The notes beneath the pieces are model-generated. The model did not search any database. It worked only from the letters and a program-made list of their open reading frames with translations, and had not been told where the DNA came from. Shown here in pieces: positions 8,711 to 39,942 of a stretch of 64,000 nt of DNA. The DNA is from Cyanobacterium stanieri PCC 7202 (GTDB lineage: Bacteria > Cyanobacteriota > Cyanobacteriia > Cyanobacteriales > Cyanobacteriaceae). Within the stretch, counting starts at the first letter, position 1. Every line of letters starts with the position of its first letter. Position numbers and translations under genes: made by a program. The stretch spans positions 1,364,001 through 1,428,000 of the forward strand of contig CP003940.1 in the NCBI GenBank assembly GCA_000317655.1. The letters are read 5' to 3'.

Positions 8711-10021
8711 CTAAATCCGATACTTACCACCCTTATCAGGATCTGTCCAATCACAGGCATAACCTTGAGTTTCAGGAACAAACTGGTTCCAAGGAATTGG
8801 ATCCACAGGGCCATCAGTAGAATAGAGAATATCAAATAATCCATCACTTCTTACCTGCCCAATCCGAACAGTTTTAGAAATATGATGATTAGGTTGCATG
8901 GTAACAGGTCCATGGGGTGCGTCCAGTTGTTGTCCAACGGCAGCAGCCCTTACCGCTTCCAAGTCATCCGCAGTACCAGCCGCCTCCACCGCCTGTTTCC
9001 AGAGATAAACCATAATATAAGCAGCTTCCATGGGGTCATTTGTTACCCTATCTGCCCCATACTCAGCTCTGAAAGCATCAACAAACGAACTATTTTCGGG
9101 AGTTTCGACAGTTTGAAAATAATTCCACGCCGCATAATGACCTTCCAAATATTCCACCCCAATCTGTCTCACCTCTTCCTCGGCAACACTCACAGACATC
9201 ACAGGATACCTTTCAGGATCTAAACCCGCAGCCTGAATTTGTTTAAAGAAAGCCACATTACTATCACCATTAAGGCTATTGAAAATAATTCCCCCATCGG
9301 GCAATGCCGCCCTGATTTTGGCAATAATGGGAGTAACCTCGGTATTTCCTAGGGGCAAATAATCTTCTCCCACAACTTCCCCACCCAAAGCATTTAACTG
9401 CTCTTTGATAATAGTATTGGCAGTACGGGGAAAGACATAATCAGAACCGACTAGGAAAAACTGATCACCCTTATTGTCCAACAACCATTGTACAGCGGGT
9501 TCAATTTGTTGATTAGGGGCAGCCCCTGTATAAAAGATGTTCCTAGAACACTCTTGACCCTCATATTGCACAGGATACCAGAGCATGTGGTTTTTAGACT
9601 CAAACACAGGTAAAACCGCCTGACGACTCGCAGAAGTCCAACAGCCGAACACTGTTACCACCTGATCTTGATCAATTAACTTGGTCGCTCTTTCGGCAAA
9701 GGTAGGCCAATCGGACGCTCCATCTTCGATAACGGCTTCTATTTGTTTTCCTAATACCCCACCATTGGCATTGATTTCCTTAATTGCCAACTGTTCAGCT
9801 TCTACCACAGTGGTTTCACTAATGGCCATGGTGCCACTGAGAGAATGCAAGATTCCGACTTTGATGGTATCCCCACTACTAGCAGTGGTTTCTCCTCCAG
9901 CGGTGGTTTGTTCTCCCCCTTCGGTGGTAGTGGTCGCATCTCCACAGGCTTTTAATAAAATACTTGTTCCCAAGGTTGCAGAACCATATAAAAGAAACTT
10001 TCTTCTACTATATTTAGACAT
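8711..10021 (-). CDS. urtA: Urea ABC transporter substrate-binding protein
   Basis: A 436-residue periplasmic urea receptor of the amide/urea branch of the leucine-binding protein family, feeding the UrtBCDE importer. The N-terminus has a twin-arginine signal (SRRKFLLYG, Arg6-Arg7) and a lipobox-like LLKAC with Cys26, so it is probably a Tat-exported lipoprotein. A Thr/Gly linker follows, then the binding domain starting [25 protein letters not shown] and [12 protein letters not shown] are typical UrtA segments. An NtcA-type promoter lies 51-91 bases upstream. urtB and urtC are not seen in the window, while urtD and urtE lie 44 kb away. Confidence 0.93.
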
Positions 10022-17267: not shown

Positions 17268-19892
17268 TTAAAAAGAAACCATAAATAAGTCCAAACCCTG
17301 CTCAAAAATTTGATCAATGGGTAACATCTGGCCATCAGAGGTCATCATCTTATGATCCTTCGTAGCTTTGATAGTTGCACCATTTTCCAACTCATACTCA
17401 AAAACCTCTTGCTCTCCTCGATCATGCCACTGGGCGATCGCCTGGGTATATACAAAACCATACTGATCTACACTATACACAGTACACTGGATCTGCTCTT
17501 CAACAATTTTACCGATGGGTAAAACCCCATACTCCACCGTCAAAACCTCCGTATCATAACTCAAACAATACTCAGCAAACTTAACCATCTGCTGAAATAA
17601 ACTCTCCGCAATGTCCTTCGACACACCATTTTTCATCGCCCCATCGATAAATTTCTCTTGATGTTTCGCCATTTCCGAAGCCTTTTTCTTACCCATCGCC
17701 CGACGCAAAAGATCTGCCTCCCCAAGGGAATAACCAGCCAAATCCTGAGCCATTTTCATAATTTGCTCTTGATACACCAACACCGCATAGGTTTCCTTGA
17801 GAATAGGCTGGAGCAGTTCATGGTCATATTTAATGGGCTCTCTACCATGCTTACGATTGATGAAAATGGGGATCAAACCAGCATCAAGGGGGCCGGGGCG
17901 ATATAGTGCCAAAATCGAAGAAATATCCTCAATGCCCGATGGTTTCAAATCCCGAACAATTTGTTTCATACCATCGGACTCTAGCTGAAAGATACCCTGT
18001 AAATCTCCCCTTTCTAGTAAATTATGGGTCAATGCCACATCCTTGGGTAACTTTTTACTGGTACCCTTTGCCAAAATTTCCAGAGCTTTCCTTTCCCCTA
18101 GGGGTAAGTCATCTACATCGATGTGAATATCTCGATTTTGCTTGATCAAGTCTGCTGTTTTTTGGATCGTGGTTAGATTTCTTAGACCCAAAAAGTCCAT
18201 TTTCAATAATCCCAAGGATTCGAGATCTTCCATAAAATATTGAGTAATCACCGAACCTTCGTTATTTTTTTGTAGGGGTACAATTTCATCCAAGGGATCA
18301 CTGGAAATTACCACCCCTGCGGCGTGAACCCCAAAGGTTTTATTCATCCCCTCAATGCGCATCGCCATATCTAACCATTTTTTTACCCTTGGTTCGTTAT
18401 CATATCTTTGTTTAAATTCAGGGGATGGGGTGTCATCGGATACCATCACCTTCAATTTTGCGGGTTTTCCACGGGCTACGGGAATCATTTTTGCCATCTC
18501 GTCGGCTTCGGCGTAGGGGATCGCCAAAACTCTCGCCACGTCCTTTAACACCGCCTTAGAGGTCATACGGTTAAAGGTGATAATTTGAGCGACTTTATCC
18601 TCTCCATATTTAGCGGTGACATATTTGATCATCTGATCCCTTTTATCAATACAAAAGTCGGTATCAATATCAGGCATGGATTTACGCTCGGGGTTGAGGA
18701 AACGCTCGAACAACAGTCCATGGTGAACAGGATCAATGTTGGTAATACCAAGGGCATAGGCTACCAATGAACCTGCCGCCGAACCTCGCCCTGGCCCTAC
18801 GGGAATATTGTTATCTCTGGCATATTTAATATAGTCCCAAACTACGAGGAAGTAGGTGCAGAAGCCCATTTTTTCCATCATCCGCAGTTCATATTCCAGT
18901 CTTTCTTTATAAACTGGGGTGATTTCGCTTTTTTGGCGACAGTTAAATCTCTGCATCAAACCATCCCAGGTGACGGCTTCGAGATAGCTTTCGGGGGTGT
19001 GTCCACTGGGGATGTCAAAGTTGGGGATTCTTGGCTCTCCGAGGACGTTGTAGGGTTTGATTTTATCGGCGATTTCGAGGGTATTGATAATGGCTTGATC
19101 GATAATTTCTGGCTCAAGATGATCTCTAAATAGCAGTTTCATCTCGGCTTCGGATTTGAGGTATTCTGTGCCTGAATAACGCAGTCTTTTTTCCTCGTCG
19201 ATGTTTTTCTTGGTATTGATACAGAGGAGGGCATCATGGGCTTCTACGTCATTGCAGGAAAGAAAGTGAGAGTCGTTGGTGGCGATTATTTTGATGTCTA
19301 ATTCTTGGCTGATTTTCGCTAGTTCCACATTAACGATTCTATCTTCCCTTGATCCGTGATCTTGAATTTCGAGATAAAAGTCATCTTGGAATACTCTTTT
19401 GTACCATTTGGCTACGTCTCTGGCTCTTTTTTTGTCTCCTTTGAGGATGGCTTGGGGTATTTCCCCCCCCAGACAGGCACTGGTGACGATTAAGCCTTGG
19501 TGGTATTGTTCTAGTAGTTCTTTGTTAATACAAGGACGGGAAAAGATGCCTTTGCCTTGCATTCCTTGTAGGTGGGAGATGGTGGTAAGTTTGACGAGGT
19601 TTTTGTATCCTTGTTTGTCTTTGGCGAGGACGACTTGATGAAATTTTTTGATGCCTCGATGGTATTGGGTGATGTCATCATTGATAACGTACATTTCGTT
19701 ACCGATGATGGGTTTGATGGGTTTATTGAGGCAGTTTTTGATCAGTTGAATGGCACCATACATGACTCCGTGATCGGTAATGGCGATCGCAGGCATTCCC
19801 AATTCTACGGCTTTTTCTACGAGGGAGGGAATTTGGGATGCACCATCTAATAAGCTGTAGTCGGTGTGTATATGTAAGCCAACAAAAGACAT
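17268..19892 (-). CDS. dnaE1: DNA polymerase III alpha subunit, N-terminal part fused to split intein-N
   Basis: An 874-residue product: DnaE residues 1-775 followed by the 99-residue N-half of the cyanobacterial split DnaE intein. The PHP domain starts [11 protein letters not shown]; the polymerase active-site PDIDTDF is at 407-413 with Asp408 and Asp410; [10 protein letters not shown] and [10 protein letters not shown] are typical. The junction is [12 protein letters not shown] with Cys776 as the splicing nucleophile. The second DnaE half with intein-C, needed for a working replicase, must lie elsewhere in the genome; none is seen here. Function is chromosomal replication after protein trans-splicing. 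Confidence 0.97.
17271..17567 (-). other. Split intein N-half (DnaE intein-N)
   Basis: Ninety-nine codons from Cys1 (CLSYDTE) to FMVSF at the stop. Block A is [14 protein letters not shown]; the block B TxxH is in ATKDHKMMT, matching the Npu/Ssp DnaE intein type. It has no endonuclease domain. Length is near the 102 residues of Npu DnaE-N. Confidence 0.95.
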
Positions 19893-31124: not shown

Positions 31125-32849
31125 TTAATAGTAGTTACCCACTTTGCGATGATGTACCGCCGTTAAAGCGTCAGATTTCGATACCCTGCCTGTGGTAACT
31201 TTACTATATACAATCCAATGATCTCCGCAATCCATACGACTTACCACCTCACATTCAAGATAGGCAAGGGCATCTACTAAAATGGGAGATTTATTGGTGG
31301 CTACGGCGGTTTTTACCCCTTCAAAACGATCCGCCCCAGGGGGGAATCTTTTGAGAAAATGTTTCATGAGGGGCTGATATTTTCCTTCCTCAAGAATGTT
31401 CAAGACAAAAGTATCCTCTACCTGTAGCAAAGATTCGATCGCCCTGTCTTTTGCCACCGCCACGGTAAATCCGGGGGGTTCAAAACTAGCTTGACTCACC
31501 CACGATGCCAACATCGCCCCTTTGGTTTCTTCTCCTTTTTGGGCAGTGATGATATACAACCCACCGCTTAAACGCCCCATAGCCTTGTCTAGGTCAACGT
31601 CTAAGGCTTTCCTTTTACTAATTTTGGCTTTTTTGGTCAAAATCTGTCCTAAGTCAACTCCTGACTCCTCACAGGTTTGATAGGTGATTTCGTGGGGGGT
31701 TTCTTTGATGCGGATGGGGTTAAATACTTGATTTAAACCTAAATCCGATAGTTTGGAGGAAAAGGTGTCGATGGGTTCATCATCACCACCATAGGACTCG
31801 TATAGTCCGAAAATCTGCTTACTGTTGACAGTGGCAAGGATTGCCCCTACTTTATTGGCAATGTCGCCATTGTCGCTGAGGGGGGGCATACCAAGGACAA
31901 TTCCTGCACTGCGACTAACTATTTCGGGTATTTCGTGGATGTCGGTGCCGTTGATGTCGATCATTTCCACCGTAACCCCTGTTTTCGTGATACCCTTAGC
32001 AATGGATTGTGAGAGGCGATCGCTATAACCGTAATCAGAGATATAGAATACAGCGACGGTTTTTTCTCCCTTACTTTGTTCGCTACTCCAACGATGATAA
32101 CGGTCTAATAATTCCTGAACATTATGTTTTAAAATTGGGCCATGACCATTGGCAACCAATTTTACTTCCCCAAGGGCAGACATTCTTTTCATGGCAGAAA
32201 GGACAGATCTCGCATTAGGACCCATCAAACATTCATAATAGAAACGATAGTCTGGGGAAATGGCATCTAAATCTTGATCATATATGTCGGCACTGCAATA
32301 GTGTAAACCGAAAGCATCACAGGTAAAAAGAGTATTGGTGCCATGGTCATAACTAAATATAGTATCTGGCCAGTGGAGGTTAGGGGCGTTGACAAATTCA
32401 AATATATGACCGTTACCGATGTCTAATTGGTCACCATTTTTGACAACTTGTCGCTCAAAATCTTTATGTACAAAACCCTCTAAAAATTGGATGGCAACCT
32501 TAGAAGCCACCACGGTGATATGGGGGGCAATATCTAATAAATCTTTTACTAACCCGCTATGATCTGGCTCAGTATGAGAGATAATTAAATAATCTATATC
32601 TTGGGGATTAATTACTTTTTTTAATTCATCAAAATAAAGATCTTTAAATTTGGCGTGGGAAGTGTCAATTAAGGCATTTTTTTCTCCTTTCACCACATAG
32701 GAGTTATAGGTAGTTCCATTTTGTAAACCAAATTCGATGTCGAAACGATCTCGATCCCAGTCTAGGGAGCGTATGGTGGTGGTATCAGGGGCGATATTTT
32801 CCACCTGAGTAGTAAGACGTTTTGCTGTTTTAATGGGAGTTGTAACCAT
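31125..32849 (-). CDS. flv3: Flavodiiron protein, probably Flv3
   Basis: A 574-residue three-domain flavodiiron protein: metallo-beta-lactamase-like diiron domain, flavodoxin-like domain (from about 260), and a C-terminal flavin reductase-like domain (from about 425, LSGGLYIITAQKG). The diiron ligands are canonical: HTEPDH at 92-97, the His of NLHWPDT, the Asp of TCDAFG and the His of NGHGPI. In Synechocystis Flv1/Flv3 return electrons from photosystem I to oxygen. Canonical ligands point to Flv3 (or Flv4) rather than Flv1/Flv2; the start IRSLDWDRDRFDIEFG supports Flv3. The partner gene flv1 is not in the window. Confidence 0.82.
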   Translation of the reverse strand: MVTTPIKTAKRLTTQVENIAPDTTTIRSLDWDRDRFDIEFGLQNGTTYNSYVVKGEKNALIDTSHAKFKDLYFDELKKVINPQDIDYLIISHTEPDHSGLVKDLLDIAPHITVVASKVAIQFLEGFVHKDFERQVVKNGDQLDIGNGHIFEFVNAPNLHWPDTIFSYDHGTNTLFTCDAFGLHYCSADIYDQDLDAISPDYRFYYECLMGPNARSVLSAMKRMSALGEVKLVANGHGPILKHNVQELLDRYHRWSSEQSKGEKTVAVFYISDYGYSDRLSQSIAKGITKTGVTVEMIDINGTDIHEIPEIVSRSAGIVLGMPPLSDNGDIANKVGAILATVNSKQIFGLYESYGGDDEPIDTFSSKLSDLGLNQVFNPIRIKETPHEITYQTCEESGVDLGQILTKKAKISKRKALDVDLDKAMGRLSGGLYIITAQKGEETKGAMLASWVSQASFEPPGFTVAVAKDRAIESLLQVEDTFVLNILEEGKYQPLMKHFLKRFPPGADRFEGVKTAVATNKSPILVDALAYLECEVVSRMDCGDHWIVYSKVTTGRVSKSDALTAVHHRKVGNYY

Positions 32850-32929: not shown

Positions 32930-34417
32930 TTATACTTCGAGCATCACTTCTTCTTCTAATACTCTTACTTTTTTACCTGATTTAGTCATTTTGGAACCGA
33001 TAATAAACACAGCTAACCCGATTAAAGGACTAATGAGAGTGGGAAAACCATCAAAATCGGGAGAGAAAAAAGAATTGGGAATATATAGAAGAGTGTTATC
33101 GATACCAAATACCGTCGGCATGAAAATAAAAAATAGTAGACGAGTGGAAGTGCCGATGATTATACAAGATAATGCTCCTTGCCAAGTTGCTTTTGACCAG
33201 AAAAGTCCACCAGTCAAAGGAATTAATAAACCTGCAAAGCCTATATCAAAAGCTAATAGTAATAAAATTCCCGTTTGGGGTACTCTTAGGGCAAAAAATA
33301 CTCCTAAAGCAGTAATGAAAAAAGCCATGATTCGGGTAATAAGTAAAAGGCGATCGCCCCCAGCGTTACGATCATCATGACGAATACCTAAAATATTATG
33401 AGCCATCACCGATGCAGTACCCAAAATAGCTCCATCAGCAGTGGATAGAGATGCAGACAAAATAGCTGCAATAACCAATAAACCCAAAGCAGGAGGAATA
33501 ACACCCCTAATCAAACTGAATAACAAAGGGCCCTCGGGAGTAATTCCCGCATTACTAAGAATATCCCCTGCAGACAAAGCAATCATGGAAAATGGCACAC
33601 CAATAATCACAGTACCAAAAGAACCAATAAAACACGCTCTTTGTGCTGTATCAGGACTCTCAGCCGCAAAAACACGAGCCATAAAATCGATCGCCACAAT
33701 ATCCCCTAATCCTAAAGCCAGAAGAGTAGCCCAGTTAATAGCAGCCCCTTCTGCTGGATTGGTAAGTTGAGCCAAATCCATCGGCCCCATACCATCAGGA
33801 ATAACTAAACCAAAATTCATCGTGATGAAAAACATCAACAAAACCGTGCCAACCAAAGCAATAGCTACTTGAATGGCATCGGTATAAGCTACGGCAAAAA
33901 GACCACCACTAGCCGTATAAATCAAGACGATGATTGCAATCAACATCACTCCAGCTATATAGCTAGTGCCTAAAAAGGCTTGAAATAGATAACCCCCTGC
34001 CACCAGATTACCCGCTAACAAAAAAGAGAAGCTCAGAACCATAATAATCGAAGCAACAACTTCCGTTAGACGATTATACTTACGCCGATAAAAATCAGGT
34101 AAAGTGATTAAACCCATACGGTTCATAGGCTTTGCAAAGAAAAGACCAGTCAAAAATAGACATAGAGCCAAACCAAGGGGTAAAGATGCCCCTGCCCAAA
34201 ACCCAAATTCTGCGGCTAAATCAGTATTTCCGAGAGTGGCATTAGAATCTACCGATTGAGCCATTAAAGTAGCTGCAGCTAACGGTAACATTAATCCTCG
34301 ACCAGCTACCAAATAATTTTCACTGTTCCCTTTTATTTTTTTTGCAGCCCATACACCTATGCCTAAAGTACCGAAAAGAAATACAACAATCCCCCAAAAC
34401 AGTATCTTATCTGTCAT
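32930..34417 (-). CDS. Sodium:solute symporter (SSS family), candidate guanidine-operon transporter
   Basis: A 495-residue membrane protein with about 13 hydrophobic helices and SSS-family landmarks: an N-terminal SENYLVAGRGL segment, the TASGGLFAVAYTDAIQ stretch in the middle (the family 'GG...v..TD..Q' motif), and SLSTADGAILGTASVMAHNI after it. These carriers use sodium to import small solutes such as sugars, proline, pantothenate or urea. It follows ghaB on the same strand after 128 bases, so it may belong to the guanidine regulon and bring in guanidine or a related compound. The substrate is inferred from position only. Flv3 starts 80 bases further on. Confidence 0.75.
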   Translation of the reverse strand: MTDKILFWGIVVFLFGTLGIGVWAAKKIKGNSENYLVAGRGLMLPLAAATLMAQSVDSNATLGNTDLAAEFGFWAGASLPLGLALCLFLTGLFFAKPMNRMGLITLPDFYRRKYNRLTEVVASIIMVLSFSFLLAGNLVAGGYLFQAFLGTSYIAGVMLIAIIVLIYTASGGLFAVAYTDAIQVAIALVGTVLLMFFITMNFGLVIPDGMGPMDLAQLTNPAEGAAINWATLLALGLGDIVAIDFMARVFAAESPDTAQRACFIGSFGTVIIGVPFSMIALSAGDILSNAGITPEGPLLFSLIRGVIPPALGLLVIAAILSASLSTADGAILGTASVMAHNILGIRHDDRNAGGDRLLLITRIMAFFITALGVFFALRVPQTGILLLLAFDIGFAGLLIPLTGGLFWSKATWQGALSCIIIGTSTRLLFFIFMPTVFGIDNTLLYIPNSFFSPDFDGFPTLISPLIGLAVFIIGSKMTKSGKKVRVLEEEVMLEV

Positions 34418-34448
34418 AATATTTACCTTTATGTATCATTTTTAATTT

Positions 34449-34537
34449 GTCGAATCTGAGAGTTGCACCTACCAATGTTCCTTCTTAGGTTCGACTTTTT
34501 CTCGTTACAGACTTATGTACTGTTAGTTAGACAGTAC
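34449..34537 (-). promoter_or_regulatory. Structured spacer between ghaB and the symporter gene
   Basis: The 128-base gap contains a 7+7 inverted repeat (GTACTGT/ACAGTAC, 34517-34537). It also has a nested stem: GTCGAA/TTCGAC outside (34449-34495) with ACCTA/TAGGT inside. A segment AACTCTCAG with an upstream CGAGA weakly recalls a glycine riboswitch, but most of the consensus is absent. It could be a processing site, attenuator or an unknown riboswitch. The ribosome site AAAGG lies nine bases before the symporter ATG. Confidence 0.4.
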
Positions 34538-34545
34538 AAATAGAC

Positions 34546-35247
34546 TTACACCGTTGCCGTTAAAGTCTTTTTCTGATTAGTTATTAACTGATTTTTGACC
34601 CAAGTAAACCATTCATCTAACCCCATTTCTGTCTTACTCGATACAGGAATAATAGTTACATGAGGATTCATTTGTTTTACGTTACTAATTAATTTTTCGA
34701 GATCAAAATCCAAATAAGGAGCCAAATCCATTTTTGTAATTAATAAACAATCTGCTTCCTGAAACATAATTGGATATTTGAGTGGTTTATCTTCCCCCTC
34801 CGTAATGCTCAATAAAGCTACTTTGGCGTGTTCTCCTACCTCAAATTCCGCAGGACATACCAAATTACCGACATTCTCTACCCAAACTAAGTCTAGGGTG
34901 TGGGGATCATATTTTGCTCTGAGTTGATGAATTCCCCCCGACACCATCTTGGAGTCAAGATGGCAAGATCTTCCTGTATTAATTGCGATGACGGGAACGT
35001 CATACTGTCTCAGGCGATCTGCATCCAATTCGGTTGTCATATCCCCTTCAATCACTGCCATTTTTAATTGATTATGTAAATGGGCAAGGGTTTTTTCTAG
35101 TAAAGCTGTTTTACCTGCTCCGGGGCTACTCATTAAGTTAAAGCAGGTAATGCCCCACTGGTCAAAATGTTCTCGATTATGATCAGCCCCTGCTTGATTC
35201 GCATGGAGTAAGTTTATTTCTAAGGCTGCGTCAAATGTCTGGTGCAT
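34546..35247 (-). CDS. ghaB: HypB-like GTPase nickel chaperone for guanidine hydrolase
   Basis: A 233-residue SIMIBI GTPase related to HypB. The P-loop SSPGAGKT is at 40-47; [11 protein letters not shown] and [12 protein letters not shown] (with the metal-binding Cys) are typical, and TKMDL is the guanine-specificity motif. The N-terminus lacks the long His-rich storage stretch of some HypB proteins. HypB inserts nickel in hydrogenase maturation, but here it lies directly after gdmH and the HypA-like gene with no hydrogenase genes nearby. By analogy with Synechocystis (sll1077-sll1079) it most likely loads nickel into GdmH. Confidence 0.87.
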
Positions 35248-35266
35248 AATGTTTATTAATTACTAT

Positions 35267-35641
35267 TTAATTTAAGGACAAAGAAGGTTCAGGATTTGAA
35301 TATTCAATATGATCAATTTTTAATTCTCTACCTGAGCGAATATCTTCCATGGGTGCATTACATTGGGGACAAGAATATTGCAGGCCAATTTCTGGTTTAT
35401 ATTCTTGGTCACAATGATGACAAAAAGCCACAAGAGGAACACTTTTGATGGCAAGAGTTGCCCCTTCAAGGAAAGTATTGCGGGTTTGAGCTTCAAAGGC
35501 AAAAGCTAGACTAGCAGGTTCAACACAGGTAAAGTCACCCACCAAAAGATGAACCTTATCAATTTGATAGGGGTGAGGTTGGGACTCGTACCAATCCCTT
35601 ACAGTCATTATCAATGCCTTGGTCATATCGGTTTCGTGCAT
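35267..35641 (-). CDS. ghaA: HypA-like nickel chaperone for guanidine hydrolase
   Basis: A 124-residue HypA homologue when started at the ATG at 35641, which gives the invariant nickel-binding MHE N-terminus and has a GGAGGAG ribosome site four bases upstream. A longer reading from 35680 would bury this motif. The zinc site is intact: CHHC and CPQC, separated by about 16 residues. It sits 29 bases after gdmH and 19 before ghaB, forming a tight operon. HypA proteins pass nickel to enzymes with HypB; the context points to GdmH as client. Confidence 0.88.
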   Translation of the reverse strand: MHETDMTKALIMTVRDWYESQPHPYQIDKVHLLVGDFTCVEPASLAFAFEAQTRNTFLEGATLAIKSVPLVAFCHHCDQEYKPEIGLQYSCPQCNAPMEDIRSGRELKIDHIEYSNPEPSLSLN

Positions 35642-35670
35642 AATCTCCTCCACAGATAAGGGTGAATAGT

Positions 35671-36828
35671 TTAGCTCCAAGGCTCATCGACTACTTGAGA
35701 TTCTTCGTAAATATAGTCTGGCTTTTGTTGACGAGGAAGTTGTCCAGAAACTACTAAATGAGCCATGGTGTCACAAATTACTCGGGTCGCCATTAAAGAT
35801 GTCATGTCGCTCACATCATAGGGGGGAGATACCTCCACAACTTCAATGCCACAGACTGTTGTATTTTGTACGATTTTCTTTAAAAGATATAAAGCCTCAC
35901 GGGGTAATAATCCCCCAGGTTCTGGCCATCCAGTACCAGGAACAAATCCTGCATCAATACAATCTATGTCGAAACTAATCCAAACGCAATCGGTGCCATC
36001 GGTGGCTTTTTCAATGGCAAAGTCAGCGGCGGCATCTAAACCCATTTCGGTAATATCGGTGACGGTTAAAATGTTGGTTGCTCTTTCTCTACAAACTTTT
36101 ACTCCTTGTCGGGGTACTTGCCAACCTCCAATGCCCAACTGGACTAAATTTTTGGCAGGGGCATTTTTCATATTGGTGGCATGAAACCAAGGGCAGGTAT
36201 GCATTCTTTCATCTAAATCTGTCTCTTGGGTATCCACATGACGATCAAAGTGAATGATGCCTATTTTTTTATCCCCTAGATGACGGCATACTCCTCTGAC
36301 GGTGGGGAAGCCAATGGAGTGATCTCCGCCCAGAATAATGGGAAATGCCCCTGATTTAAATATATGAGCGATACCTTTGGAAATTTGGTCAAAGGATTTT
36401 TCATTGTTGCCGGGAATGGTGAAAATATCTCCCACGTCACACAATTTAATTTGTTCTCTGAGGTCAACTCCTAGCTCGAAGTTGTAGGGGGTATATAAAG
36501 CACTTATGCGGCGAATACCCTGAGGACCAAAGCGAGTACCGGGACGGTATGTGGTTCCTGAGTCATGGGGGACTCCCACAATGGCTACATCATAGTTTCC
36601 TACTTTATTGACATCTTCTAGGTAGGGGGCCTTGAGAAAAGTGTTGATTCCTGCATAGTGGGGGAGTTCTCCACGGGAAAAGGTGGATATGGTACGGTCT
36701 TTGATGCTATCGGCGGCTTCTAGCCCGTAGTTTAATCCATCTTGTACTTCTTGCTGCCATCCTGTTAAGGATAGTTGTTGTTCTTTTTCCAAGGCTCTTT
36801 GAGCTTCGTTTTCTGGTTGGTTACTCAT
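35671..36828 (-). CDS. gdmH: Ni-dependent guanidine hydrolase (ureohydrolase family)
   Basis: A 385-residue ureohydrolase that by family hydrolyses guanidine to urea and ammonia. Metal ligands are present: His170 (GGDHS), Asp195/His197/Asp199 (DRHVD) and Asp287/Asp289 (SFDIDCID). The long N-terminal extension, the HFDRHVDTQETDLDERMH segment and PGTGWPEPGG separate it from ordinary agmatinases and match the Synechocystis Sll1077 type shown to be Ni-dependent GdmH. The start at 36828 has an AAAGGA ribosome site five bases before. A guanidine-I riboswitch precedes it and two nickel chaperone genes follow, which together make the substrate assignment strong. Confidence 0.92.
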   Translation of the reverse strand: MSNQPENEAQRALEKEQQLSLTGWQQEVQDGLNYGLEAADSIKDRTISTFSRGELPHYAGINTFLKAPYLEDVNKVGNYDVAIVGVPHDSGTTYRPGTRFGPQGIRRISALYTPYNFELGVDLREQIKLCDVGDIFTIPGNNEKSFDQISKGIAHIFKSGAFPIILGGDHSIGFPTVRGVCRHLGDKKIGIIHFDRHVDTQETDLDERMHTCPWFHATNMKNAPAKNLVQLGIGGWQVPRQGVKVCRERATNILTVTDITEMGLDAAADFAIEKATDGTDCVWISFDIDCIDAGFVPGTGWPEPGGLLPREALYLLKKIVQNTTVCGIEVVEVSPPYDVSDMTSLMATRVICDTMAHLVVSGQLPRQQKPDYIYEESQVVDEPWS

Positions 36829-36864
36829 ATTTCCTTTGATATTTTTGTGTAATATACATAGATA

Positions 36865-36917
36865 CAACAAAGCCCAGAAGAACGATCATAGGGGCGACCG
36901 CATTCTCCCGGGCTTTT
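36865..36917 (-). terminator. Riboswitch-controlled terminator before gdmH
   Basis: Minus-strand AAAGCCC (36916-36910) pairs with GGGCTTT (36875-36869), extended by AGAA/TTCT, then GTTGT. The 5' arm is part of the conserved AAAGCCCGGGAGA end of the aptamer, so ligand binding would block terminator folding. This is the usual 'on' logic of guanidine-I riboswitches. Confidence 0.75.
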
Positions 36918-37036
36918 CTCCCTCCGTGTAGCTAAAGTGTATCAGGGTGATTTTTGTAAACAAATTCCCCACGGTTTCAGCCTGTTTCTCTCGGACCAGT
37001 CATATATTTTTATATATCGGAACCCTAGAAACCTTC
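36899..37036 (-). promoter_or_regulatory. Guanidine-I riboswitch (ykkC type)
   Basis: On the minus strand the leader shows the class hallmarks in order: CTAGGGTTCCG, then GACTGGTCCGAGAGAAAC after an AT-rich stem-loop, later ACACGGAGGGA and finally AAAAGCCCGGGAGA. These are the conserved blocks of the guanidine-I aptamer. The downstream gene is a guanidine hydrolase, the expected kind of target. Boundaries are approximate. Confidence 0.93.
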
Positions 37037-37065
37037 TTTACATATCTTTATTGTCTTTGGCATTA

Positions 37066-37108
37066 AAGTTAACATCCCCCTATGGGGGAAAACTGTATTA
37101 GAATATAC
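37066..37108 (-). promoter_or_regulatory. NtcA-type promoter of the guanidine operon
   Basis: GTATATTCTAATAC (37095-37108) matches GTA-N8-TAC exactly. On the minus strand a TAACTT -10 box (TA-N3-T, 37066-37071) follows after 23 bases, within NtcA promoter spacing. Transcription would start just ahead of the riboswitch aptamer. A CCCCCATAGGGGG palindrome sits between the two boxes. Confidence 0.75.
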
Positions 37109-37158: not shown

Positions 37159-38169
37159 CTATGGTTGATCGCTAATCATTTTTTGCCCGCCGATGCCTAA
37201 TTCTTGTTTTAATAGTTGAATGGATTTGTCACCTATATAGTTATCACTACAAATTAATTTGGGAGGGCGTATCAACTCTTCTTGGGTAGCCAAAATCATT
37301 TTTTTGACTGCTAGATAGCTATGGTTATCGGAAATGATGGTATGGGCGCGATTGACGACACTTTTTAGGCGACGATGATCGTTGGGTTGGGCGATAATGG
37401 TACTAACTTCGTTTCCCCGTAAACTTTGCACCATCATCTCGGCAACTCGGAGAATGCCACTACTGAGGCTGACGATGCCTAGGCAGGAGTCGAGGGGTAA
37501 TTGTTTGATGACTTTTAATTCTTTGGCGTAGTCGCATATATCGATGGGAATTACTCGGATAGATGGTAGGGAAATGATGTCTAATACTTGGGTGACGAAG
37601 TAGCGACTGGTGACGATGGTGGCGGAGTTTTCTTGGCTGATTATTTTACTTAATTCTTCGAGGGGTATTAGTTGGATGGGCATCATGAGGGCTTGTTGTA
37701 GTTCTAATACCATGAGTTTTCCTGCTCCGATGTCGGCGTTTGGCACGGTGACGAGGACAAGGGCGTTGCAACTTAGTCGCCAGTCTATTTCTGCTAAAAA
37801 TAATTCTTTGATTTGATCAAGGTTTGAGCCTGAGAGGAGTAGTTGATCAATTTGTTGACTGATAATGGTCTGAATTTCTGAGTATTTGGTGGGGGGGGAG
37901 TTTTTGTTATTTAGGATTCCTTCGTTGCCTTGGGCTTTGACGTAAATTCCTGAGCCTGTGAGGGATTCGACTAAGCCTACTTTTTCTAGTTTCTGATAAA
38001 CTTTACTGATGGTGTTGCGGTGTAAGCCCGTTATTTGTCCTAGTTGGCGGGTGCTGGGTAGTCTATGCCCTGGGGGATATTGCCTGGAGGCGATCGCAAA
38101 TTGGATCTGGTCAAAGAGTTGTTGTGAGGGGGGAATATCACTGTCGGAGTGAATTTGAAAGTAAACCAT
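37159..38169 (-). CDS. GntR-family transcriptional regulator
   Basis: A 336-residue regulator with an N-terminal winged helix of the GntR type: PPSQQLFDQIQFAIASRQYPPGHRLPSTRQLGQITGLHRNTISKVYQKLEKVGLVES (about 14-70), ending in GSGIYV. The remaining 250 residues are an effector-like region of a kind seen in cyanobacterial GntR proteins; it is neither a clear aminotransferase nor a UTRA domain. A similar Synechocystis regulator (Sll1961) affects photosystem stoichiometry, but orthology is not established. It lies upstream of the guanidine promoter on the same strand, so it could be a neighbour without regulatory link. Confidence 0.75.
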   Translation of the reverse strand: MVYFQIHSDSDIPPSQQLFDQIQFAIASRQYPPGHRLPSTRQLGQITGLHRNTISKVYQKLEKVGLVESLTGSGIYVKAQGNEGILNNKNSPPTKYSEIQTIISQQIDQLLLSGSNLDQIKELFLAEIDWRLSCNALVLVTVPNADIGAGKLMVLELQQALMMPIQLIPLEELSKIISQENSATIVTSRYFVTQVLDIISLPSIRVIPIDICDYAKELKVIKQLPLDSCLGIVSLSSGILRVAEMMVQSLRGNEVSTIIAQPNDHRRLKSVVNRAHTIISDNHSYLAVKKMILATQEELIRPPKLICSDNYIGDKSIQLLKQELGIGGQKMISDQP

Positions 38170-38337: not shown

Positions 38338-39681
38338 TCAGCTTTTCAAGAGATAATAAATGGTAATATAAAGGGCAGAAATGGTTAACTGGGCGATCGC
38401 AATGGGTAAACCATAACGCAAAAAAGTACCATAGGAAATCGTTTTTCCGTGCAACTCAGCCACCCCAGCGCCCACAATATTAGCAGAAGCACCCACCAGA
38501 GTAGCATTTCCACCCAAAGTCGCCCCAAACATCATCGCAAAAAATAAAGGCAACACCACAGGGGGATAATTACCACTAAAACTACTTTGTAAAACCTCCC
38601 CCCCAATTAATCCAGCATTGAATAAATATTCTTTCAAAAGAGGAATCATCGCCACCACCAAAGGAATATTCGGAATCACAGAAGATAACGCCCCCACCGC
38701 AAACACCAATACTAAGGAAGCTAGGAAAATATTTTGACCCAACAACAACGCAAAGATTACCGAAATCTGACTAATTACCCCCGTTTTTTCCAATCCCCCA
38801 ATCAGCACAAATACCGACATGAAAAAAATTAAGGTACTCCAATCCACATCCCTTAAAATATTTTGCACCGTATCAATTTTACTCTGATGGGCTAATAATA
38901 ACGCCAAAGTAGCCCCCATCAAAGCCACCGCCGCAGGAGAAAGAGGTATGGGTAATAAATCTCCGAAAATAAAGAATAGGAGAACAAATAACATAATTAA
39001 AGCACCCAAGGACAGTACCCGAGGATGATTAATTTTGGGAATGGGTAACTGTTCAAAATTAGTAAAACGACTATGCCAGATTTCTTTGAACAAAAAAGGA
39101 GTCATCACCACCACCGTAACCACTGCTAAAACCCCTGCCCAACTCAGAGAAATTAAATAATCAAAAAAACTCATATTAATAGAATCCCCCACAATAAAAG
39201 TAGCAGGATCTCCCACCAATGTTAATAGTCCAGCACTATTAGAAACAATTACCATCAAAATAATTAACGGGACAAAATTAACACCAATTTCCTCAGCTAA
39301 AGGAGGAATTAAAGGAGCAAGAAGAGTTACGGTGGTAGCGTTGGGTAATATGGCACAAATAGGGGCAGTAATGCCGATAATACCTAATAACAAATAATTA
39401 CCTCTACCCTTTGACCAAAGCACAATTTTCGTGGCTAAATAGGCAAAAATGTTTGTCGGTTCAAATGCTCTTACTAACACCATTACCCCAAAAAATAAAC
39501 CCAGGGTGACATGACCTCGGCTGATATAGTCCACAGCTTCTCCTAATGTCATAATATGGGCAAATACAAGCACCAAAGAGCCTAATAAAGCCGCCACAGT
39601 TAGATGTATTTTCTCAGTCATAATTAGGGCAATTACGGCGATGAATACGCCCCCTGCCACTAGGCTAGAAAAATCAAGCAT
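38338..39681 (-). CDS. ArsB/NhaD-superfamily ion permease (SLC13/P-protein-like)
   Basis: A 447-residue membrane protein with about 11-12 hydrophobic helices. Two family repeats are visible: AICAILPNATTVTLLAPLI (the 'NxTT' loop) and NSAGLLTLVGDPATFIVGDSI in the first half, then SSVIPNIPLVVAMIPLL and FGATLGGNATLVGASANIVG in the second. This pattern is shared by ArsB, the OCA2 P-protein, NhaD and citrate carriers. The ion is uncertain; sodium/proton or an organic or inorganic anion are possible. A c-di-AMP riboswitch in the leader ties it to osmotic or ion balance. Confidence 0.8.
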   Translation of the reverse strand: MLDFSSLVAGGVFIAVIALIMTEKIHLTVAALLGSLVLVFAHIMTLGEAVDYISRGHVTLGLFFGVMVLVRAFEPTNIFAYLATKIVLWSKGRGNYLLLGIIGITAPICAILPNATTVTLLAPLIPPLAEEIGVNFVPLIILMVIVSNSAGLLTLVGDPATFIVGDSINMSFFDYLISLSWAGVLAVVTVVVMTPFLFKEIWHSRFTNFEQLPIPKINHPRVLSLGALIMLFVLLFFIFGDLLPIPLSPAAVALMGATLALLLAHQSKIDTVQNILRDVDWSTLIFFMSVFVLIGGLEKTGVISQISVIFALLLGQNIFLASLVLVFAVGALSSVIPNIPLVVAMIPLLKEYLFNAGLIGGEVLQSSFSGNYPPVVLPLFFAMMFGATLGGNATLVGASANIVGAGVAELHGKTISYGTFLRYGLPIAIAQLTISALYITIYYLLKS

Positions 39682-39779
39682 TATTTATTTTCAGATTGAA
39701 TAAGGGTGATTTGATGAAGAGATGTGTCTTATTCGGATACCTAAATCAATTTTTAGTTTTCACAAAAAAACTATTTTTT

Positions 39780-39942
39780 TGGTCTCCTCCCAATGCCGAC
39801 GAGGTTAGCTGACGGGCTAGAACTGAGAGATGTTCTTCTTTAAGATCTGCTTAAAGATAAGCCCCGAATTTGGTTCCCCCGCTCCTCTTTAATTACTAAG
39901 TATTAATAATCTTTTTATAAGGACTAGGCTGACTTTCTCTAG
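39780..39942 (-). promoter_or_regulatory. c-di-AMP riboswitch (ydaO/yuaA type)
   Basis: Read on the minus strand, the leader contains the conserved blocks in order: CAGCCTAGTCCTT, then GGAGCGGGGGAACCAAATT, CGGGGCTTATC, and near the end GCCCGTCAGCTAACCTCG followed by GGCATTGGGAGGAGACC. These match the ydaO class. An AAAAAAATAGTTTTTTT stretch follows and could form part of an expression platform. The permease ATG lies about 100 bases downstream. Known ydaO riboswitches usually turn genes off when c-di-AMP is high. Confidence 0.93.

Follow-up and report, generated by a model that had tools for sequence, protein, structure and literature searches.

A predicted guanidine-scavenging operon with an NtcA-type promoter, a guanidine-I riboswitch and an SSS-family transporter in Cyanobacterium stanieri

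Background

How might a cyanobacterium take up free guanidine if no ATP-binding cassette (ABC) importer is encoded behind its guanidine hydrolase gene, and what would decide when the operon is expressed? The question is raised by a run of genes in Cyanobacterium stanieri PCC 7202, located on the minus strand at positions 32930-37108 of a window of 64,000 nucleotides (nt) (contig CP003940.1, positions 1,364,001 to 1,428,000; coordinates below are those of the window unless another locus is named). Behind an NtcA-type promoter and a guanidine-I riboswitch it contains gdmH for a predicted nickel-dependent guanidine hydrolase, ghaA and ghaB for nickel chaperones, and a gene for a symporter of the SSS family. 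We consider it very probable that this is a nitrogen-scavenging operon for free guanidine, which is controlled by NtcA together with the riboswitch and takes up guanidinium through the SSS protein. The sequences compared below show which parts are present and in which order, that the NtcA box and the terminator stem are conserved, and that SSS genes are linked to the riboswitch.

Research on guanidine as a source of nitrogen is recent. An operon of riboswitch, GdmH, HypA/HypB-like proteins and ABC importer, and its role, were described in Synechocystis (PMC8390497, PMC12186494), the identical cassette of six genes, preceded by a ykkC leader, in Limnospira (PMC8400943), and guanidine clusters with an ABC transporter in marine picocyanobacteria (PMC10119275); here and below, statements on cited papers refer to their titles, the openings of their abstracts and some passages. 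Literature covered to this extent contained no report of NtcA control of a gdmH operon or of guanidine transport by an SSS protein. We claim no priority, since the likeliest sources (Itzenhauser 2025, Giner-Lamia 2017) are outside this coverage, as are Funck 2022 and Nelson 2017.

Results

The features are listed in the order of transcription, the last gene ending at 32930.

37095..37108, minus strand: NtcA box GTATATTCTAATAC, an exact GTAN8TAC
37075..37089, minus strand: inverted repeat TCCCCC-ATA-GGGGGA in the interval between the NtcA box and the -10 element
37066..37071, minus strand: -10 element TAACTT (TAN3T), 23 nt downstream of the NtcA box
36903..37039, minus strand: guanidine-I riboswitch aptamer (RF00442, 83.5 bits)
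36869..36916, minus strand: terminator hairpin predicted by folding, which has the aptamer 3' strand in common
35671..36870, minus strand: gdmH, predicted Ni-dependent guanidine hydrolase (Arginase family)
35267..35680, minus strand: ghaA, HypA-like Ni chaperone (PF01155, TIGR00100)
34546..35247, minus strand: ghaB, HypB-like GTPase (TIGR00073, 308 bits)
32930..34417, minus strand: SSS-family Na+/solute symporter (PF00474), putative guanidinium importer

The original prediction, made from the letters of the DNA, had placed the NtcA-type promoter, the riboswitch, gdmH, ghaA, ghaB and the SSS gene in one minus-strand run, which is borne out by the open reading frames, the promoter motifs, Rfam and Pfam/NCBIfam. 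It had also named the riboswitch class, and Rfam agrees: in a search of the 64-kb window the aptamer exceeds the gathering score of 63 bits (E 2.1e-13), and the match spans model positions 1-107. The likely start of gdmH is the ATG at 36828, preceded by AAAGGA (judged from the translation and from the start of a relative in locus L190); that of ghaA is the ATG at 35641, from which the translated protein begins MHE. The intergenic gaps are about 29 nt (gdmH-ghaA), 19 nt (ghaA-ghaB) and 128 nt (ghaB-SSS), and a consensus scan called no minus-strand terminator in the last of them.

The motifs GGDHS, HFDRHVD and SFDIDCID of GdmH, which we take to carry the metal ligands, are identical to those of the solved chain 7esr in the alignment. 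GdmH residues 18-398, almost the entire protein, align to 7esr and 7oi1 with 799 bits; 9fek scores 582 bits and the next ureohydrolase 177 bits. 7OI1 is the Synechocystis GdmH, and 9FEK is the guanidinase of Nitrospira inopinata (PMC11410670). By sequence, the nearest solved relatives are guanidinases, far above other ureohydrolases, and the match to the Synechocystis enzyme supports the guanidine assignment made at the outset. An agmatinase role was rejected: the NCBIfam agmatinase model is barely passed (181 vs 174 bits), and guanidinases lead the structure matches.

The product of ghaB is the sole HypB above the cut-off in the genome, which was searched as a single contig of 3,163,381 bases; the runner-up has 80 bits against a cut-off of 121. 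A search for the large subunit of NiFe hydrogenase was positive in 5 of 14 control genomes and found none in this one, and a function of ghaA and ghaB in hydrogenase maturation was rejected on this ground. For these two reasons, ghaA and ghaB most likely serve GdmH. A urease alpha gene is present in the genome away from the operon, which supports the earlier proposal that the product urea enters the urea pathway; NtcA is encoded as well (374 bits).

The SSS gene is the less usual and the least expected part of the operon, which contains no ABC importer genes and in this respect is not of the known ABC type. Downstream of gdmH, 47 of 95 non-duplicate loci have ABC genes only and 15 have SSS only; one has a partial ABC set (one gene), none has both, and 32 have neither, although 13 of these 32 have less than 5 kb of downstream sequence. 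When the count is limited to the 74 loci with 5 kb or more downstream, 41 have ABC genes, 14 have SSS, none has both and 19 have neither (Fisher p 1.8e-6). In the contig scan for gdmH, 80 of 369 stretches were kept. The ABC binding protein of Geminocystis has no match in the C. stanieri genome, whereas the same query is positive in 176 of 388 genomes sampled from the class.

The history of the two importer types was considered on trees of gdmH and SSS, both of them quick trees with many weak forks. In the gdmH tree C. stanieri is nearest to Geminocystis sp. GBBB08 (96%, ABC type) and belongs to a starred group of five rows, three ABC and two SSS; in the SSS tree its partner is L044 (97*), a cyanobacterial metagenome genome. 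In Geminocystis, the closest relatives as judged by gdmH, the ABC importer occupies the place that the SSS gene has here. To account for the SSS label, the gdmH tree requires 13 changes, of which starred branches force at least 4; the shuffled mean is 14.2, so that the label shows no clustering beyond chance. If only ABC and SSS are compared, 12 changes are required. Locus L088 has a 59-codon piece (9443-9619) like the C-terminal part of SSS in the interval between ghaB and the ABC genes, which is a probable relic of a transporter swap. Another locus, L079, has a second guanidine-I riboswitch (1121-1201), apart from gdmH's own, before a separate ABC importer cluster.

The SSS protein exceeds the cut-off of Pfam SSF (PF00474) with 122 bits. 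Its model fold (pLDDT 78) matches best CHT1, SGLT and a sialic acid symporter, and plant DUR3 urea transporters are also among the structure matches; because the model is of moderate confidence, we claim no binding site. The nearest solved relatives, both by sequence and by fold, are human choline transporters (CHT1), whose substrate, choline, is a small organic cation like guanidinium.

At a threshold of E 1e-100 or better, 43 of the 388 genomes have an SSS homologue. It is directly behind its own guanidine-I riboswitch in 22 of them (3 divergent from gdmH) and in a gdmH operon in 8, of which 7 have a riboswitch by pattern; the eighth, L158, gave no guanidine-I match over the Rfam cut-off. 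A guanidine-I riboswitch is found anywhere in the genome in 40 of these 43 genomes vs 166 of the 345 without SSS (p 5e-9; hand counts at riboswitch E 0.001 or better, the genomes being non-independent). The riboswitch pattern was positive in 31 of 31 loci from two Rfam genome searches, and an Rfam re-check for riboswitches missed by it covered 20 loci, including all 13 SSS loci with neither riboswitch nor gdmH. This linkage suggests that the SSS protein would import guanidinium with Na+.

The association extends beyond cyanobacteria. Four records, taken from the top of the list of 131 plasmid-collection records with a match, have SSS homologues of 49-58% identity. On a plasmid of Rubrobacter indicoceani (L201) a guanidine-I riboswitch (75.7 bits), GdmH (59%) and SSS (55%) are consecutive, and urease genes are nearby, beyond a formamidase gene on the opposite strand; the best solved match of this GdmH is 9fek, then 7esr, and there is no match to ghaA or ghaB within 14.4 kb. 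Nonomuraea has the SSS homologue beside a divergent GdmH gene (61%), with no riboswitch found there. Haloarcula and Halalkalicoccus (L199, L200) have homologues of 56-58% with a ureohydrolase nearby, possibly a separate pathway for guanidino compounds.

NtcA class II promoters have the consensus GTAN8TAC with TAN3T 20-24 nt downstream, and their start site is about 41 nt from the box centre. The promoter of the operon fits this pattern by its exact box, 23-nt spacing and TAACTT. Its conservation was considered in 101 cyanobacterial guanidine-I leaders, which remained of 106 after removal of 5 duplicates. They were found by a pattern in loci collected on account of gdmH, SSS or the riboswitch, and two riboswitches that had escaped this pattern were included after Rfam checks. 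These leaders are related sequences and not independent draws. In 78 of the 101 the 200 nt upstream contain an exact GTAN8TAC (before gdmH in 59 of 76, before SSS in 18 of 22, before other genes in 1 of 3), whereas dinucleotide shuffles give a mean of 3.1 (standard deviation 1.7). Other spacings of GTA and TAC, N3 to N14, occur in 1-6 leaders each, seven other triplet pairs at N8 in 1-8 each, and the exact box occurs in 1-4 of 95-100 leaders in each of five 200-nt windows further upstream. The box with TAN3T at 19-25 nt is found in 29 leaders vs 0.53 in shuffles. In these sequences, the position of the NtcA box ahead of the riboswitch is conserved above chance.

The inverted repeat TCCCCC/GGGGGA was considered as a conserved operator and rejected: by eye, a C-rich stretch is present there in two leaders of the Geminocystis family and mostly not in others.

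The end of the aptamer is overlapped by a strong predicted hairpin. The 63 nt from the aptamer end (36860-36922) fold with -27.8 kcal/mol, and none of 200 shuffles is as stable; the same terminator-type hairpin is present when the full leader is folded to minimum energy. The predicted terminator stem occupies the aptamer's own 3' strand, AGCCCGGGAGAA, which presumably belongs to the P3 stem of the guanidine-I class, so that this expression platform and the aptamer are predicted to be mutually exclusive. The gdmH ribosome site, by sequence, is outside the hairpin. The aptamer 3' strand can pair over at least 8 bp with a downstream partner in 90 of the 101 leaders; with one mononucleotide shuffle per leader, the number is 20.

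Discussion

We propose the following mechanism. Under nitrogen limitation, NtcA with 2-oxoglutarate would bind the box and activate the class II-type promoter. If guanidine is present and bound, the aptamer would hold AGCCCGGGAGAA and transcription would continue; if it is absent, AGCCCGGGAGAA would pair with UUCUUCUGGGCU to form the terminator. A transcript reaching as far as the SSS gene would supply GdmH, the Ni chaperones GhaA and GhaB and the symporter, which would bring in guanidinium with Na+. GdmH would convert guanidine to urea and ammonium, and the urease encoded elsewhere would complete the route.

Similar systems are known in part. The Synechocystis sp. PCC 6803 gdmH operon (sll1077-sll1082) likewise unites a guanidine-I riboswitch with genes for GdmH, for HypA/HypB-like chaperones and for an importer (PMC8390497, PMC10094980, PMC12186494); however, the importer there is of the ABC type, and here it is a single SSS symporter. 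Locus L198, close to Synechocystis, has a one-mismatch NtcA box in its leader, unlike the exact box of C. stanieri. The comammox bacterium Nitrospira inopinata shares the guanidine-I riboswitch, a guanidinase and a single-protein secondary transporter, but the latter is an APC permease and the region has no Ni chaperones, in contrast to SSS and ghaAB here (PMC11410670). The Rubrobacter plasmid described above shares the riboswitch, GdmH, SSS and nearby urease genes; it differs in the missing ghaA/ghaB match, the closeness of urease and the phylum. Cyanobacterial gifB also has NtcA control and a riboswitch combined in one leader, but its riboswitch responds to glutamine and NtcA is a repressor (PMC6316151). 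In the C. stanieri operon the ligand would be guanidine, and NtcA is expected to be an activator.

Several observations weigh against one or another part of our proposal. The exact NtcA box is missing in 23 of the 101 leaders. In 8 of these, L198 (GdmH 97.6% identical to Sll1077) among them, there is a box with one mismatch and a -10 element at 22-23 nt (3 of 100 in a control window); an exact box followed by TAN3T at 19-25 nt is confined to 29 of the 101. Since a T-rich tail (at least 5 T in nine bases after a stem of at least 8 bp) is present in only 48 of the 101 leaders, we infer termination as the read-out and do not assert it. As to the importers, an ABC binding protein is also present in 21 of the 43 SSS genomes (a hand count) vs 176 of 388 overall, and a genome-wide exclusion of SSS and ABC was rejected on this ground. 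Among the gdmH loci with neither importer downstream, L079, L089 and L110 have ABC genes nearby which are not downstream on the same strand, and in L046, L100, L160 and L185 an SSS gene lies nearby in divergent orientation. Thirteen of the 43 SSS homologues have neither the riboswitch nor gdmH nearby, and for 12 of these 13 the 300 nt upstream contain no exact NtcA box. The ureohydrolase near SSS in haloarchaea is only about 36% identical to GdmH.

The substrate and direction of transport can be explained otherwise. It is conceivable that the SSS protein imports another compound (urea, a choline-like compound or a small amine) and merely shares the operon, as the CHT1 and DUR3 matches, the 13 homologues outside guanidine-I or gdmH context and the distant ureohydrolase in two haloarchaea would allow. 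We believe this to be unlikely: 22 of the 43 SSS homologues are directly behind their own guanidine-I riboswitch, SSS never accompanies the ABC importer behind gdmH, and riboswitch, GdmH and SSS recur together in an actinobacterium. SSS-family members are mostly Na+-driven importers, which argues against export of guanidine as a safety valve, as do the position of the gene in the place of the ABC importer and the NtcA box in 18 of 22 SSS leaders, consistent with scavenging. Export would resemble many guanidine riboswitch-controlled exporters, efflux pumps being common targets of these riboswitches (PMC12186494); nevertheless, we regard it as the least probable of the explanations considered.

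The control, too, can be explained otherwise. The riboswitch alone could be in charge, the NtcA box of this strain being a chance match. The pattern GTAN8TAC-N23-TAN3T, considered at this spacing only, has 29 sites in the genome vs 58 for a reversed control pattern; for this reason the motif alone is not significant, and its genome-wide significance was dropped. On the other hand, the exact box occurs in 78 of 101 leaders and at one spacing only, which makes control by the riboswitch alone very unlikely. Of the control proposed originally, the dual part holds up in that the combination of NtcA and riboswitch looks conserved by this count of leaders. A strict AND gate, in which NtcA starts the transcript and guanidine permits its continuation, is plausible and did not gain in the same way; the Microcystis data fit it poorly. 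Under low nitrogen, Microcystis speB (18840) changed -1.6 fold and the ABC genes 18880-18900 changed +5.3 to +7.5 fold, added guanidine being unmentioned in the passages available (PMC3720943). We infer from the neighbourhood that these tags represent the guanidine operon; if so, a strict AND gate fails there. NtcA and guanidine may instead act additively, with a leaky terminator or a basal promoter, which is favoured by this increase of the Microcystis ABC genes and by the 20-fold increase of Sll1077 in guanidine-producing Synechocystis, in a comparison whose nitrogen status is not established (PMC8390497). The strong hairpin on the aptamer strand and the NtcA box in series with it speak against additivity; we give it a substantial chance, somewhat short of even. 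The decrease of sll1077-1082 under excess ammonium (PMC10094980) fits nitrogen control.

More broadly, we lean towards the view that these SSS proteins are a family of guanidinium-specific Na+ symporters, repeatedly swapped with ABC importers in cyanobacteria and associated also with GdmH in Actinomycetota and with related haloarchaeal hydrolases, and that the leaders are a widespread NtcA-riboswitch switch in series. If true, SSS guanidine importers are a testable transporter family, and an importer type free of ATP would explain how GdmH is fed in organisms without the ABC system. A conserved NtcA-riboswitch leader would mean that cyanobacteria treat guanidine as food in nitrogen hunger and not as a poison only; it would also offer a two-input switch for engineering.

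Neighbouring genes

A flavodiiron-type gene (31125-32849, minus strand) lies 80 nt past the SSS gene; the gap between them contains TATAAT, and no terminator was called in it. Directly upstream of the operon, a GntR-type regulator of 336 amino acids is encoded on the same strand (37159-38169, minus strand). It has no homologue of at least 40% identity in the other loci mapped, and we presume that it resembles cyanobacterial PlmA. Further upstream, a cyclic di-AMP riboswitch (39779-39912, minus strand; RF00379, 66.4 bits) is located ahead of a gene for a CitMHS/ArsB-type transporter (38338-39681).

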